In this document: one piece after another, positions 31,440 through 61,323 of the stretch
Numbering within the stretch: the stretch's first letter is position 1
Layout: each line of letters begins with the position of its first letter
Origin: Lepidurus packardi
Lineage: Eukaryota > Arthropoda > Branchiopoda > Notostraca > Triopsidae
Assembly (NCBI GenBank): GCA_023053545.1
Contig: JAKZAN010000006.1
Coordinates: forward strand, 8,443,851-8,507,850
Direction of reading: 5' to 3'
DNA: 64,000 nt
The notes under the pieces: generated by a model
Seen by the model: the letters and a program-made list of their open reading frames with translations, nothing else
What the model was told of the DNA's origin: nothing
The model's database searches: none
Made by a program: the position numbers and the translations under genes

Positions 31440-34400
31440 ATGTGCATTTTATTCTTTTCTTTCAAACCAAAGCCGGTGAACAATGGCTACAAATTAATCC
31501 TAGCTGCCAACAGAGATGAATATTTTAATCGTCCTGCCGCCCCAGCTCATTATTGGGAGAAAGATATCAATATTCTTGGAGGTAACAGTTTTCATTCTTT
31601 TGTAACATAATGTACGACGCATTACAATGTATTCAAGGTAAAACTTCATCAATAAGTTCAGAAAATGCGACCATTAAGTCGTTGTTATTCGCCATGGATT
31701 CCACCGAATGATTTTTTCTAAACATATCCTCCATTGTCGATTTCTTATCCCCATCTGGGTTAGCAAGATCGTAACTATTAGACCTGTTAACTTTTTCCAT
31801 TGACATGACCACGGGAAGGGCATAGCACGCTCTCATAACACCTGCGAACGCTTTCTGATCGAGTTCTTTCTTGAACAGTTGCCAGTTCATACCTTTGACA
31901 TCCACGTCCAATTTTTTTAATGTCTCAATAAAGGTTCCGAAATATTCCTGAAGCCAGATGTTAGCTCTGTCACTCCTTAGGGTCGAAGTGACGCTGATGA
32001 ACAGGAATTGTATGATATCAGATGCGGGATGTCCGTAACAAGCAAACTGGTAATCCACTGTGGCGCAATTGATGGGCATATCTTGTTCGTCATACTTGAA
32101 TAAATAGTTATTTATCCAGGAATCACCATGGAGTAGACAGTCCATGATACTTGAACTCGGCTCCTCTTGGGGTTCTTTCACCATAATTGCCATAATTTGC
32201 CCAAATTTCTGGGCGCTTCGCTCGCTGAATCTGGCTAAGGCTTTCCTCATGTTACTTACAACAGTTTTCAAGTACTTTGCTGTCAGCGGATCACGTTGAC
32301 CGGGCGTAGTCGTGTAAAAAACTGACCATACTTTGCCTGCTTTTTTAGTGAAAGCCAAACTAGTTGCGTGAAAATAGGCCAGGTATTTCAGGACACAGCG
32401 TACGTGTGTTTCATCGCAAAAACAAGTTTGTACGTTCTTTGCTTGTATAAATCCCTTCGCTTGCAAATTTTCCATAGCTAAGATGCATCCGTATTCGTTG
32501 GCATTTTCCTTGAGCTCTCCGTAGTACAAACGGGGTTGCGGAAGCATAACGTTGCTATCAAGATTGTGTTCCTTTAAAAATCGGCGCAAATCCGGCAACA
32601 CTTCTCTGTAAATGCAAAGTTCTCGATGGGGCATGAAGTTGGCGTAATGAAACTGGCGTCGAGATAAAACACGGGGCAGTATCTGTTTTGTTGTAATTAA
32701 GAATACAAAGTATTAGCCCATACGCTATTTACACACCGAACTCCGTTCTTGTCAGTTTGTCGTTAAAGTGCTTGTGAAATTAAATGAAAACTAACGCATA
32801 AACATAAACGAATCATTCAAGATTACCGTTTCAGGGTGAAATATTTCAACATTGCAAAAAATTTTCTTTTGCGCACCTCTGGGAATGAATTGATTCAGAA
32901 CCACAATTAAGTTAGGACTCTGCTTGTCTGTTGTGGTTATAAGCTTACTTTCTCATTGTTTGAATTCGCACTGGTTGTTATCAATAGGGGGGCATTCCGG
33001 AGGGTGTCCAACAGAACGCAAGTTTGACGACTTTACGCCTTTGGACACACGAATAGAGTTCGGTGTTTGATTGGAGAGGTATAAAATTTGAATTAAGCTT
33101 GCATAAGCTTTGAATTGCAGATGGCATCAGAGATCTCACAAACGACGTTTAGAGAATATTAGCCCAAAGTTCTTGTCAGTTGGGAAATACGAAAGCCCTA
33201 TAATACTTTTAATATTAGAAAAGCTTGACCACCATACGAAAGTTACAGCTCGTAGATGATCTGGGACATCTTAATTTCTCATAAATTTGGCTTCTTCGGA
33301 CGAGTCCCGGAACATAAAAATCTACAACGACTATGTCTTCAAACACACTTCGTTTTTGAGCCCACAGATTCAGTATTGTTACTGCGCTGCCTGTCAAATG
33401 CGAACAAAATAGCCTAACAATTGAGGACAAAGCCTACACTACACTAGCTGGACGACTTACAACCTAGGATCGAAAGTTCGTTTCCTTCCACTGCTAGGGT
33501 TACATTCCATGTCAAGGGTTAAACCTTGCAGAATCTCGGCATCTTAAAACTACTCAGTTATACTTTTAAATTTTACCTTGATAAAGCAGGAGCTTCTTTG
33601 AGTGTAGTCAGGAGTAACAGTTTCCATCTTAAATACCTCGCTCCCTGCGTGAACGTCGTCTTCAGAACCTTTGCTTAAAACTACACAGTATTGACCGACG
33701 TTCCTCTTTACTTCCGTAACATCAGGTAAAGCAAGCGGTCTTGTTAGATTTTCAATATCACACTTGCTAAAAAAGTCGACCCAAAACTCGGCCTTCTGTG
33801 CCTCCATTCCTTACGTTTTGTTTTCAAGTGAGCTGTAGATACTGTACCACGAACATTGAGAAAAGACCTCTGTACGTTGTAGCGACGATAGCTATGCCCC
33901 TCGTCTCTTGGCCTGTTGTTATCAGTTTTGATGTTTCAATAGGAATGGATCTCACTCCTGGGAAAGAAGGAGGCACCTGGCTAGCCCTCAGTAGGAATGG
34001 GCGGCTTGGGATTTTGTTGAATATGACGCAAAACAAGCGGGAATTAGAAGAAGCCTGTAACTTGGCTGGGAGAGGCTTTTTTATCAGTCAATACCTACAA
34101 CAAACTGGAGTTTCCCTGACAGAGAATTTACGGAGTATTGCGACGGTGGGAAACCAGTATGACCCATTTAAGTTAGTCATGATGGATTTGAAGTAAGTTG
34201 AAAATTCTTTGCTATTAGGATGTTGATTGCTCTGTAGATTGTAGAGGCAGATTTGTAGTAACATTTTTTGTATAGGCAAAACCTATTGGGGATGGTTCAT
34301 AACCACGGTGAAGCAAAGTTCTCGTTGTTGGAGCCCGGAGTGTATGGCATGGGCAATAACTATCCGCATTTAAAGTGGCGGAAAGTTGAAGCGGGCACTG

Positions 34401-35337: not shown

Positions 35338-37733
35338 ATGTAAGTACACAATATATTTCTTAGTTTAGTTTCTTATCTGTGCAACGTTTCAGGGTAAAAA
35401 GGAAAAATTCCGAGTCAGACTCCATTGAAAGTGAGTCTGAAGCACGAAGGCATGTGTTGGCACAGTTCAAGTCTGAAACGGGGGAACTTTTAGCAACACC
35501 TTTTGACTTGCCCTTTTCGGTTACCAGGGAAAATCTTCAACAGCTATGCAATACGCTGTTAAATAATGTAAGTGTGTGTTTGACTCGCTTCTCGCTTAGG
35601 GTAAAGGCTTACGGTATCTTGTGTAGGAGGACAAAGTACCCTACACATTCTTCGTCAAGGACCAAGAAGTCACTACCAACCTTTCAGAAGTTTTAAAGAA
35701 CTTAACTGCCCTCGATACGGAAATAATATTGGAAATTATCTACCAGCCACAAGCAGTTTTTAAAGTCAGAGCTGTCACAAGATGCACCAGGTATGTAGTG
35801 TAGTGTCCAAGCCAAAGTTTAAGTGAGGAAGGTACCCGCTAACCAGAAAGGGAATTTGCCAGTGTGCCTTTCCCCAACGCTTGAGCTGATGCTTACTGTT
35901 AGCGCTTCGCGAATTTAAAGCGTAAATACGAAATGCTGCAAGGTTCGTTAACAGGTAAAGGAAACCATTGGTTCAAACGTTTTTGGGAAGGGCTAACAGG
36001 CGCCCTCGTTCTCTGTTTGTATGGGTATCATCCCTGTGTAAACGTTCACTTTAACATAAGTTGACAAGCTCATTCCTTATAAAAATCTAATGTTTTCGTC
36101 CACTTCTTTTTTAGTTCATTGCCCGGTCATGCAGAAGCTGTTATATCCGCATGCTTTAGTCCAGATGGTCGCCACTTGGCTAGTGGATCTGGAGACTGCA
36201 CAGTTCGTTTTTGGGATTTAAGCACAGAAACTCCTCTTTCTACTTGCAAAGGTAAGTCTATAAAGTCTTCTTTTACACAGATCTAATGGCCAATTTGCAG
36301 GACACAATCATTGGGTCCTTTGTATTGCGTGGGCTTCAAATGGGTTAAGATTAGCTTCGGGATGTAAGAATGGACTCGTGTGCATATGGGACCCTGAGAC
36401 AGGCAAGCAAGTTGGTCGCTCTTTAACAGGACACAAGCAGTGGATAACGTCTCTGTCATGGGAGCCGCTGCATCGGTAAAATTCGCCGGTTTTACATAGT
36501 TGTAAATAAAACGCATTGTACTGTACAGGAATCCAGAGTGTCGTCACTTGGCATCTGCTTCTAAAGATGGCGATATTAGAATATGGGATGTCCTATTAGG
36601 GAATTGCTTAAGGACGTTAGCAGGGCACCAGCAAAGTGTGACCGCTGTCAAATGGGCTGGGACGGGGCTCGTGTACTCGGGCTCGCAAGATCGTACCATT
36701 AAAGTCTGGAGACCAGAAGATGTATATAGATTGCTTTCTTTATTATTCGAAAACCTAGTTTGTCTTTATCATAGGGTATCTTGTGCCGTACATTGCAAGG
36801 GCACGCCCATTGGGTGAATTCTTTAGCGCTAAGCAGCGACTATGTTTTAAGAACAGGAGCATTTGACCCCAAGGACGCAAAGATTGTTTGCACCCAAGTG
36901 ACAGATTCTCGTAAGTATTGTCAAAGTTCAATCAAACTGTCTTTATCTCATGTACTTTGTAATTGCAGTCGAGGAAATCCGCCGAAAAGCTCAGCAACGT
37001 TACGATGCCTTAAGAGGTGTAGGAGAGGAACGTTTGGTTTCCGGGTCAGATGACTTCACACTTTTCTTATGGCTTCCTGAGAAAGATAAAAAACCCATTG
37101 GTAACAAAATTAAATTAAGTCTTTAATTTTAAGTTAAAGTATTCAGTCGCCTTGTTTGTTTTTGTCTTTAATATTATCATTTATTTATTTTTATTCTTTT
37201 TTTTATAGCGAGGATGACGGGTCACCAGCAGTTAGTAAATGATGTTAAGTTTTCTCCAGATAGTCGTATTATCGCATCAGCTAGTTTTGACAAATCAATC
37301 AAGCTTTGGGATGGTCGAACTGGAAAGTATGCTGTTTTCTTCTTGACCAAATTCGTGAAATTAAGATCACGTTTAATTTTAGGTATATTTCTTCCTTGCG
37401 TGGACATGTTCAAGCAGTTTATCAAGTCGCTTGGTCTGCAGATTGTCGGCTATTGGTTAGTGGCAGTGCGGACTCAACTTTGAAAGGTATAGGTATCCTC
37501 GAGTAGTTTCATCAGTTTATTGGCGTCTTTTTTGTAGTGTGGAATATGGGAACTTACAAGTTGGAATTGGATTTACCAGGACATGCTGACGAGGTTTACG
37601 CTGTGGACTGGTCGCCTGACGGTCAACGCGTAGTTAGTGGAGGAAAAGATAAAGTCTTGAAAATGTAAGTATCACGTGCTCGTAGCTGTCAGAACTGAAC
37701 TTTTTTCTTTGTCTAACTAGATGGAGGCATTGA
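35338..37733 (+). CDS. NLE1: Notchless homologue (NLE1), WD40 ribosome assembly factor
   Basis: Exons 35338-35339 (start codon part), 35393-35567, 35627-35790, 36115-36251, 36301-36475, 36529-36721, 36775-36910, 36969-37100, 37209-37326, 37383-37486, 37538-37664, 37721-37733; 491 aa (human 485). An N-terminal ubiquitin-like NLE domain (about residues 15-100, [17 protein letters not shown]) is followed by eight WD repeats, for example [31 protein letters not shown] and SADSTLKVWNMG, ending LKIWRH. Known: NLE1/Rsa4 is a 60S pre-ribosome factor whose UBL domain binds the AAA+ ATPase Midasin/Rea1; it also modulates Notch. The only suitable start is an ATG whose AT lies before a GTAAGT donor and whose G is supplied by the next exon. 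The terminal exon is 13 bases. Confidence 0.97.
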
Positions 37734-38881
37734 GTTATTGAGTGGCGCTTGCGGGAACATCGTACGTTTAGTGCGAAGAATGTTTTGGATTGTGACCTAA
37801 ATTTTTATTACTTTGGGTGTATTACGCAAGCTAAGATGTGCGTAAGCTACAAGAGCTTGCTGTAATACAATAACATTTATTTAAGTTATTCGAGTTATTA
37901 GTTTACTCCAAGGTATGTAATTGTGATGAGACTGAAAGTTGAGGAGATCATAACGAATGGTTTACCTAGCGTTTTGCAAGTCAGTCTTATAATCAAGTTG
38001 CGGTGAATTTTCCAATTACAGTATATTTTTGGAATCTCTTGCAATCCAACCGATAAAGCACGCCATTAGCCTATAGCGAAGTTCCCTTCTTCGTAGTCAC
38101 TGCAATGTATGAAAAGCCATTTCTAGACATGTACAATTTTAACTTTCATCACTTGTCTGCTTGCAGTACGGTTATAAGCACTGATAAATTTTAAGTTCCT
38201 ATCAAACCAAAATCAATTTAGCTCCCATTCGAGCTCTAACTGGTATACAACGTGGTGAGCCAGAAATGTTTCAATAGAAGTTCTAACGTGGATTTAAGGG
38301 CACCTAATTCGGATAACCCAGTATTCACTTGGAGGGAAGCACTACGTAAGCGTAATCGACACATGGGTTAAGCCGTGTCCTGACCAAAGACAAGGGCAGG
38401 GCATTGCTCCGTGCACCTTTTATTCCATGCACTTTCTATTGTTTAGCAATAAAATTTTAAAAAAGGAACAACTATTTAATTCCGACCAATCATTCCCAAA
38501 CCATTACTAACGTTTAGCAGGTGCAATACTTTGATCTCGTCTATCATCTCCGACATCACAAATGCCCCTATGTGTGTCTGTCTCCTGCTGTGCCTCTTTA
38601 ACCTTGTGTTCCCAAGCAGACCAAGCCATTTTTGCTCCATGAGGGTAGATTATGTCTGTCTGTCCCATGGCTGTCCAAACCCGCACCTGCCCGTGTACGC
38701 CATCGAGTAGTAGTATTTTCGCATTTCATAACTCAGTTGTTCTTCAACTCCTTCACCAGTGCACACCTAATTCCCCAGTCGAGAGTCTCCAAAGTGTTCA
38801 GTCTAACCTGTAGCCCTTTTTGCCGTTATAATCTCTTTCAGCACTCTAGACGCTGATAAATTAACAACTTATTCCTTATAG
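37734..38881. other. NLE1-ETH intergenic region
   Basis: No gene-like ORF. The last bases (TTCCTTATAG ending 38881) look like a splice acceptor before the ETH start, so an ETH leader exon and promoter should lie within this 1.1 kb. Confidence 0.5.
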
Positions 38882-38902
38882 CGCGGAATCTACTTCGATA
38901 AG

Positions 38903-39484
38903 ATGGGTTTTCCGCTATTATTGGTCGTGTCGCTAATGACGATCTTGGGAAGCAACTGGGCCATGGAGCCTCATGGTGCTTACGGCAAAACTATTCCTCG
39001 AATCGGTCGTCGGGATGGTTACTATAATTACGACGATTATGGTGACGGTGTCCCTTACGCCAGCGCCCCCCAGTACTTCTTGAAAGCCTCCAAAACCATC
39101 CCACGACTTGGACGTAGACAAGAAGGCCCTGACGTGAGAAAATAAAAACTTAAAAAGTCTTATATTTTCATCAACCGGGAAATAATTTGTTTATCTCGAG
39201 AAGGATGAAATATCATGGGACGCGTTGATGCAGGATGTGAATACGTACTTGGATTCCAGCTCCAAACATTCTTCCTCGCGTAAGCTACCCATCCGACAAA
39301 CCCTAAACGGACAAGGTCCATTGCATGAAGGTAATACACAATAAACTGCTCAGCCTGAAATAAAAAAGCGAATAAAACGGAATTTACAATTCATACTCTT
39401 GTCATAGACGCTTTTGACGACAATGCTTTAGCTTCCAGGTTTTGGTCAACTCTTTGGAAAAAGCGAATGGAACACCCCGTTTAA
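38903..39484 (+). CDS. ETH: Ecdysis triggering hormone precursor
   Basis: Secreted neuropeptide precursor, predicted 145 aa from exons 38903-39133, 39201-39330 and 39408-39484. A signal peptide (residues 1-20, hydrophobic LLLVVSLMTIL core) ends at NWA. The first peptide, MEPHGAYGKTIPRI, is followed by GRR (amidation plus dibasic cleavage). The second, 33 residues from DGYYNYDD to FLKASKTIPRL, is also followed by GRR. The shared KTIPR(I/L)-amide end matches known ETHs (Drosophila ETH2 ends KTIPRI-amide). Known: ETH from Inka cells triggers the ecdysis sequence through ETHR. Exons 2-3 encode an acidic, non-amidated tail ending FWSTLWKKRMEHPV. Without splicing the frame stops at 39145, which leaves both hormones intact but truncates the tail; intron size (67 and 77 bp) and phase favour splicing. 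Confidence 0.88.
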
Positions 39485-46049: not shown

Positions 46050-47270
46050 CTATAGTGGACGATGGGTTAAGGGCATAAAGGGAAGAACGCGCTGAAAGCT
46101 TTCGCTGTTTGTATGAGGCAAAGACATTAATGGATTAAACGCGGATGGTTTAGGCCCCGACATGGTGTTGTTTGGTTGCTGTTGGTGACTCAAATAAGAT
46201 TTTTCCAACTGTTGGTGTTGGCTCCGAATGGCTAAACGATTCACGTGGACGGGTATGGGTACAACGATTTTGGTAACTGAGGAAGAATGCGTAGGTTTGG
46301 TTCCTTGGTCACTGGACGCGACTGCTGGGTGGTGGCTATTATTGACAAAATCTTTGGCGGCAGTAGCTGCGTGATTATGTACGAGTCCTGCTTTCACGCG
46401 TTTCCATTTGGCTCGTCGGTTCTGGAACCAAATTTTCACTTGCACTTCGCTTAACCGCAACGTCGCCGCGATCTGAGACCGCTCGGTCAAACTGAGGTAC
46501 TTTTTGGCCACAAATTCACGTTCCAGTTCCATGAGTTGCTCACTACTAAACGCCGTGCGTCGACGACGTCCTTTTAGTTTACTGTTACTGCCATGGGACG
46601 AATCTTCCGTTTTTGGTTGGCGACGGACATTGTCCGCGTTTCTTGCACCATGCTGACCTCCAGGTTCATCCTCGTCTTCCCAGCCACTTCCTTCGGACAT
46701 AATATCCATGTCGCTCCCTGCAAAGACAAACAGGATGAAAATCAGTTTAAGAAATGTGTGTCTATCAAATAATTTACTTGGTTTGTACATTTAATTATTA
46801 CCTGTGAAAGGCTGAGGTGAAGAAGGCGTGGACTTTCCGCCCGAATCATCCGGTAGTGGAGAGATAAGTCTGTTAATGGAGAAATTGGACGAACTGAGTT
46901 CCGAAGCTACCGTTGCTGGTGGTATTAGACTTGACTGAGCTAATCCAGGAGGATACAGGAAGGGGGGTTTGGCCATCAAGTCGGGAACAATATTGGTCAT
47001 GCCGGGTACATTAAGATAAGGTAATCCTCGTTGCCATAAGAGGTAATTGTTGTAGAGCAATGGCCAGCAGTGTGGAGAAGCCAAATATGTCGCGACTGGA
47101 AAAGCAGTTGGTGCTGGTGGGGTATTGCCCAATTCAGTGTTGCTTTTTGATAGAGGTGTATGATGAGCTAAAATTGCTTCCAAGGAAAAGTTACTGTTCT
47201 TGTGTGAGGCCAAGTGAGGATTTTGGTGCAGATTCACACGGTACTGGAGTTGGTCCTTTATGGATTCCAT
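46050..47270 (-). CDS. unpg: GBX/unplugged-class homeobox transcription factor
   Basis: Two exons, complement of 46802-47270 and 46050-46717, joined in phase 1 across an 84 bp intron; 378 aa. The homeodomain lies at about 205-265, with [19 protein letters not shown] in helix 1, [13 protein letters not shown] in helix 2 and [20 protein letters not shown] in helix 3. [12 protein letters not shown] plus VKAG after the helix is typical of Gbx. N-terminal FSLEAIL (about residue 28) resembles an engrailed-homology repressor motif. A proline-rich centre follows, then an acidic Ser-rich stretch before the homeodomain. Known: Gbx/unplugged patterns the anterior hindbrain/deutocerebral-tritocerebral boundary and tracheal development in flies. 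Only helix 1 departs from vertebrate Gbx (FVAKK against FHCKK). It sits alone between gene-poor flanks of 6.6 and 4.4 kb. Confidence 0.96.
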
Positions 47271-60168: not shown

Positions 60169-61224
60169 TTATTTTTTCTTGGTGACGTTGACGATTTCTT
60201 TTTTTTCTAGGTCTACCGTGAAGTCGAAGTCTTTTGTCGTTAGTAATTTCACGATGACAGCATTCGCAGTGTCTGGAGTCAGTTGTAGAGTTTCTTCTTG
60301 TTTGCAGAAGTCTTTTAGTATGGTTTCTGTCATCGATGCTTCGATAATGTTATTATCGTTGAAGAAACCGACTGTGCCTTGGAAAGTTAGTGGAGTCGTT
60401 TGTCTAAGTTGAATTTTTTTGTAGTTTGTGCACGTAATGGTAGGGTCATCGTTATCTGGAATGGTCGGTTGTCGTTCTGTTTTTTTTTTGCAGGCTAGGC
60501 AGGTTTGGAAAATACCAATGTTGCAGTGGGCTATGGCTTCCAGTATGATGGGCTCCGTTGTGTCGTCTAAAATGGGTTGCTGGATGTCCAGTTGGGCTTC
60601 TGTTCTTGTAAAGAACGATTGCTGCGTCAAGGCGAAGTTTTGATAATCTTGATTATAGATGACATCGGTAATTTCGTAAACTTTGTTTTTTTCGATAGTA
60701 ACTGTTTGGTTTTTCCAGGTAATTAGTGTGGAAGTACAGGTATCGTCTCCAATTGTTATTTCGCGGAACGTTTGCCCTTTGTTCGTTGTCTTCTCTTCGC
60801 TAATGTTTTGGATTTGAACGATGATTTTGTAACGGGTGTCGGGAAACTCTATACAAGTTTGAAGTGTGGCTTGTTGCTGTTTTCTTGGCGAATAATTAAA
60901 TTTGAGCGTTTGATTTGTCTCGCTGATTTGCGAAGATTGGGTAATCTTAATAAGATCGTATTTAGTTCTTTTTTGTGGAGTCTGACCTGAAGGTGAGCTA
61001 TTCGGTAGGATTTGGATGGTGATGGGTATCTTGGCGGTCGAATAACGTTTAATTCTGCTATAGGAGCCAGCAATAAACGACAAACATTCTTCGTATGTAT
61101 TGTCCGACGTCTGCAGAAAAAAGCGAAAATTTTGGCCTGGAATTTTGGTGTACTTCGATGGACTCTGGTTTTGGCGCAAAGGGGTTATGTCATGGACGTA
61201 CCCGGTGTAAGCGTCTGCTCCCAT
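60169..61224 (-). CDS. RPA-like OB-fold protein, orphan
   Basis: Single coding exon, 351 aa, in a region of otherwise intron-rich genes. The middle region (about residues 110-225) reads as an RPA-type OB fold: TFREITIGDDTCTSTLITW, then NKVYEITDVIYNQDY. The N-terminal 85 residues (GYVHDITPLRQ...FRFFLQT) look like another OB domain. The C-terminal part (about 235-345) resembles the RPA70 zinc-bearing OB domain, with a CLACKKK pair but a second pair reduced to TCTNYK, so the zinc site may be lost. Known: such proteins bind single-stranded DNA. Similar compact multi-OB ORFs occur in transposon-linked families, but no transposase or terminal repeats are seen here. A TATA box and 5' UTR intron upstream argue that it is transcribed. 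Confidence 0.72.
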   Translation of the reverse strand: MGADAYTGYVHDITPLRQNQSPSKYTKIPGQNFRFFLQTSDNTYEECLSFIAGSYSRIKRYSTAKIPITIQILPNSSPSGQTPQKRTKYDLIKITQSSQISETNQTLKFNYSPRKQQQATLQTCIEFPDTRYKIIVQIQNISEEKTTNKGQTFREITIGDDTCTSTLITWKNQTVTIEKNKVYEITDVIYNQDYQNFALTQQSFFTRTEAQLDIQQPILDDTTEPIILEAIAHCNIGIFQTCLACKKKTERQPTIPDNDDPTITCTNYKKIQLRQTTPLTFQGTVGFFNDNNIIEASMTETILKDFCKQEETLQLTPDTANAVIVKLLTTKDFDFTVDLEKKEIVNVTKKK

Positions 61225-61235
61225 GGTTGCCGTTT

Positions 61236-61323
61236 CTGGTGGAAAGAGAATAAGACATGATGAGAAGAGTTGCAGTGGAGAACTATTGGATTAAAAAGTT
61301 GTGAAATGAAACTATTTACTTAC
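61236..61323 (-). other. 5' UTR intron of OB-fold gene
   Basis: Minus-strand donor AAAA|GTAAGTAAAT and acceptor CTTTCCACCAG, 11 bases before the start codon; 88 bp. Confidence 0.55.

Follow-up and report, generated by a model that had tools for sequence, protein, structure and literature searches.

Does the compact locus at positions 38903-39484 (+) of the window, the whole 64,000-nucleotide stretch of Lepidurus packardi DNA analysed here, encode ecdysis triggering hormone (ETH), the peptide that in related arthropods signals the start of shedding of the old cuticle, or does it encode a precursor of the pyrokinin or CAPA type? The peptide motif, the layout of the precursor, and the genome context all support identification as an ETH precursor. 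From its sequence, the locus is almost certainly the eth gene of this small-genome arthropod, predicted to yield two ETH peptides and an associated peptide.

Gene structure and predicted precursor

A 145-residue precursor is encoded by three exons at 38903-39484 (+), beginning with the ATG at 38903. The joined exons leave 438 bases open (145 residues and a stop) and are separated by GT...AG introns; the coordinates of the original prediction are right. The coding part of exon 1 (38903-39133) is open from the ATG to the donor GAC/GTGAGA (slash at the boundary) and holds the signal peptide and both hormone peptides, including both KTIPR(I/L)-GRR blocks, as originally claimed. Intron 1 spans 67 bases (39134-39200) and is followed by exon 2 (39201-39330), which carries the first part of the associated peptide in an open frame up to the donor AAG/GTAATA. 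Intron 2 spans 77 bases (39331-39407, GT...TAG). Exon 3 (39408-39484) is open and in phase after splicing, and encodes the last part of the associated peptide (FWSTLWKKRMEHPV), closing with the stop TAA at 39482-39484. We infer the splicing of both introns from these features of the sequence.

Intron 1 has a tandem acceptor, GAGAAG, whose AGs end at 39200 and 39203. As GAG is a poor splice acceptor in animals and a second AG is available in the tandem, intron 1 may well extend to 39203 instead. Exon 2 would then start at 39204, dropping one Lys (PDDEISW versus PDKDEISW) and leaving the frame unchanged.

Residues 1-20 of the precursor (MGFPLLLVVSLMTILGSNWA; 38903-38962, +) form the predicted signal peptide. 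Mean Kyte-Doolittle hydropathy reached 2.58 over 13 residues (3-15), compared to at most 0.17 for stretches from residue 23 onward, and the signal peptide claimed originally was thereby upheld. The cut after Ala20 is an assumption; alternative cuts after Gly16 or Ser17 are possible, in which case peptide 1 would be longer, at 18 or 17 residues. Cut after Ala20, peptide 1 (MEPHGAYGKTIPRI; 38963-39004, +) comprises 14 residues and is followed by the first predicted GRR amidation and cleavage site (39005-39013, +). Peptide 2 (DGYYNYDDYGDGVPYASAPQYFLKASKTIPRL; 39014-39109, +) begins DGYYN and ends YFLKASKTIPRL, directly before the second predicted GRR site (39110-39118, +); it comprises 32 residues, not the 33 given at first. 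The C-terminus required of an ETH is present in both, as KTIPRI-GRR in peptide 1 and KTIPRL-GRR in peptide 2, each with a Gly and a basic site, and both peptides are expected to be amidated. The FF(L/M/I)K-type lead occurs in peptide 2 as YFLKASK, with Y for F, and is absent from peptide 1.

The precursor contains two hormone copies, the usual number for ETH precursors (PMC9853942), plus a C-terminal tail of 73 residues. This tail had been described as spliced and acidic. Its frame is indeed open and in phase across the introns, but its acidity is only mild (12 D+E versus 9 K+R).

Peptide identity and alternative readings

To compare ETHs with pyrokinins and CAPA peptides, we scored the last nine residues by right-anchored BLOSUM62 comparison, with 5000 shuffles of each peptide. 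References were seven known ETHs and six other PRXamides (pyrokinin/CAPA), taken from PMC8291126 and PMC6158917. Peptide 2 had a mean score of 29.6 against the ETHs, reached by none of the shuffles (0/5000), versus 5.8 against the other PRXamides (3735/5000 as high). The corresponding means for peptide 1 were 20.9 (42/5000) and 3.2 (4625/5000). When positions -12 to -4 were scored against the ETHs, omitting PRx, peptide 2 yielded 24.3 (0/5000) and peptide 1 yielded -3.1 (568/5000). Because of the latter weak score, we consider peptide 1 ETH-like only at its end; it matches ETHs over the last six to nine residues only. The comparison with pyrokinins called for by the original prediction, run here at the peptide level, thus came out with both peptides scoring higher against ETHs, peptide 1 over its last nine residues only. 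Together with layout and genome context, the motif supports the claim of two GRR-terminated KTIPR(I/L) peptides of ETH type.

The motif is also rare. Across the 64 kb window, read in all six frames, PR[ILVM]G[KR][KR] occurred twice, both times at this locus, compared to a mean of 0.07 in 60 Markov-simulated windows; with an upstream K, the same word was found in none of the 60. Genome-wide (108.6 Mb), a strict KTIPRxGRR-type DNA pattern gave two matches, both here, and none in the reversed control. A loose K..PRxG pattern matched 28 places, and is of little meaning given the 19 found in the reversed control. Six of the other 26 loose-pattern places were read as potential second eth genes and rejected, all of them lacking both a signal peptide and a further motif in the frame of the first. 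The eth gene is apparently single-copy. The precursor matched no Pfam family, and its single PDB match (E 0.17) is not meaningful. Neither peptide surfaced when open-licence PubMed Central text was searched by fragments; the papers returned were unrelated or dealt with ETHs of other sequence. This absence carries little weight, since predicted genes seldom appear in print.

How far do these data leave room for other readings? A pyrokinin- or CAPA-type precursor would equally end its peptides in PRx-amide, a terminus common to all three families, and the genome does contain a receptor that looks to be of the CAPA/pyrokinin type (L026, its class judged from motifs). However, the FxPRL-amide or FPR(V/I)-amide end of those peptides is absent here. 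In both peptides Lys-Thr-Ile precedes PRx, without the Phe of FxPRx, and scores against the six pyrokinin/CAPA references were no better than those of most shuffles. On these two grounds we rejected a pyrokinin/CAPA identity, which is hardly conceivable for this gene. A loose FxPRx pattern matched 21 places in the genome and 15 in the control.

Other readings accept an ETH precursor and concern its products. The original prediction raised FWSTLWKKRM as a further processed product, which would make the tail a source of a third bioactive peptide, released at KKR (39458-39466, +). The site is present, and an eclosion-hormone paralogue of the same genome ends in the loosely similar FWSYFWK, yet no Gly precedes KKR, so that amidation would not take place, and only MEHPV remains after it. 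When the tail was used as a query across the genome (E up to 10), it matched only its own two exons. For the 47-residue associated peptide of Manduca, the relevant passage of PMC10455322 names no hormone role. A third hormone is therefore very unlikely, the suggestion having gained no positive support, and the tail ending in FWSTLWKKRM is probably best read as an ETH-associated peptide. Less remote, though still not to be expected, is occasional retention of intron 1 besides the full form. Read-through of the exon 1 donor would add VRK and then a TAA at 39143-39145, past both hormones, giving an 80-residue precursor with the same two peptides. Such a form is plausible because Carcinus has long and truncated ETH precursors (136 and 61 residues) with signal and mature peptide common to both (PMC6158917), but the downstream exons of the present gene are open and in phase. 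The spliced, 145-residue ETH precursor is thus the reading we prefer.

Candidate receptors and genomic surroundings

A seven-helix search of the genome returned 95 matches, 30 of which were scanned. Two genes of the genome are candidate ETH receptors, putatively named from their motifs. The first, on C2, has exons inside 12140292-12140858 and 12147267-12148376 that form one open frame from TM3 to the C-terminus; it carries VAHASVLTILAISFERYYAICRPLRAGYVCTKKRA, which we take to be an ETHR-like motif. The second lies on C4, around 10537.2-10539.6 kb (10537259-10539578). It keeps ETHR-like motifs and is 67% identical to the C2 receptor in the TM3 part, 34% in the middle, and 56% in TM6-7. A protein search with the C2 receptor found 18 places: the gene itself (one), the C4 gene (three), and 14 others at 28-44%. 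Among the best 60 of 409 PDB matches to the C2 receptor, those for ghrelin and TRH were nearest. Receptors for orexin, cholecystokinin, neurotensin, and motilin followed, and the PRXamide receptors of vertebrates, those for neuromedin U, ranked lower.

We saw no sign of alternative 3' exons of the insect ETHR-A/ETHR-B type in the C2 gene, and near the C4 gene a protein search returned no additional 3' exon resembling the one in the C2 gene. According to PMC13234976, only single ETHRs are known from crustaceans, except for Daphnia pulex and D. magna; for Daphnia, PMC6073494 names ETH receptors only. Two ETHR-like genes would fit a branchiopod. Conceivably each of the paralogous receptors serves one of the two ETH peptides (PRI or PRL), with gene duplication as the counterpart of the insect ETHR-A/ETHR-B splice forms, but we regard this as improbable.

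Other genes of the ecdysis system were sought in the same genome. Two eclosion-hormone genes scored 95.2 and 64.7 bits, with a cut-off of 25. They lie convergently on C4 (4860650-4861243), where about 600 bases hold the matched parts of both. A long tail ending PVFWSYFWKQSLAESI is present in the second eclosion hormone; the loose likeness of its FWSYFWK to FWSTLWKKRM in the ETH precursor may be due to chance. For CCAP, exact patterns gave no match in the whole genome, and patterns with two mismatches gave four places versus three in the control, with L046 and L048 unlike CCAP. The Pfam family PF11105 gave one match, below the cut-off and with internal stops. This is not evidence of loss, as the peptide may be split by an intron or variant. 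Upstream of the eth gene (36903-38902), ecdysone-response elements of the IR1 type were no better than in base shuffles (37/60 as good), and the same held for FTZ-F1-like sites (60/60). A DR4 element was weak (7/60 as good).

Within the window, an ecdysteroid kinase-like gene (31633-32712, -; PF02958, E 6e-40) lies some 6 kb away from the eth gene, probably by chance. A homeodomain gene (PF00046), presumably Gbx/unplugged-like from its motif, is found at 46053-46790 (-). A long open frame at 60169-61290 (-), without a Pfam match, recurs on another contig, about 6 kb beyond the C2 receptor gene (L043, 9797-10000), the common stretch being SFIAGSYSRIKRYSTAKIPITIQILPNSSPSG. It is perhaps a dispersed element.

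Predicted action and comparison with known ETH genes

By analogy with insects and Carcinus, the signal peptide would bring the precursor into the secretory pathway. Cuts at the two GRR sites, whose glycines would provide for amidation, would release a short PETH/ETH-like peptide (KTIPRI-amide), a long one (YFLKASKTIPRL-amide), and a probably non-hormonal associated peptide. On the same analogy, both amidated peptides would bind ETH receptors, for which the two genes above are candidates, and elicit pre-ecdysis and ecdysis behaviour alongside eclosion hormone. The gene is of a well-known type and is an ordinary new example of it. As a clean two-peptide ETH gene accompanied by eclosion-hormone genes and receptor candidates, in an arthropod not among the species compared, it would make this lineage usable for comparing the onset of moulting.

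The eth gene of Manduca sexta is alike in having three exons and two introns, a signal peptide, a short first and a longer second peptide, and a C-terminal associated peptide (PMC10455322). The three peptides measure 14, 32, and about 73 residues here, and 11 (PETH), 26 (ETH), and 47 in Manduca; known ETHs range from 11 to 34 residues (PMC10455322). Because the Manduca gene follows the same plan, the layout is not odd, and on this comparison nothing in the gene plan is unusual. The original prediction had called the first peptide unusually short. Its length of 14 residues stands, if cut after Ala20, but "unusually" does not, given a first peptide of 11 residues in Manduca.

Peptide order differs from that in Drosophila, where ETH1 precedes ETH2. 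ETH1 ends PRL and ETH2 PRI, whereas the order here is PRI, then PRL. KTIPRI is common to Drosophila ETH2 and peptide 1, and the core K-x-x-K-x-(V/I)-P-R-(I/L)-amide is common to peptide 2 and the ETH1 and ETH2 of Drosophila, Anopheles, and Tribolium (PMC8291126). Compared to these insect ETHs, peptide 2 has YF for FF, and peptide 1 keeps only GKTIPRI.

Among crustaceans, the ETH precursor of Daphnia pulex has two peptides, of which the first is shorter and ends PRI and the second is longer (FFLKASK...PRL); their sequences differ from those here. Its accession is EFX73380.1 (PMC6158917). From krill assemblies, PMC3749230 reports that no ETH was found. The ETH of Carcinus maenas (carcikinin, DAGHFFAETPKHLPRI-amide) comes from a 136-residue precursor, close in size to the one described here (PMC6158917). 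Unlike the present precursor, it holds a single hormone peptide, which had the lowest score of the seven ETHs over the last nine residues of both peptides. In Carcinus, changing F5 to Y raises the receptor ED50 from 0.4-0.6 to 3.5 nM (PMC13234976). Peptide 2, with YF where most ETHs have FF, is a natural case of the substitution tested there. The Y at a comparable place may therefore mean either that the receptor is adapted to it or that the potency of peptide 2 is lower.
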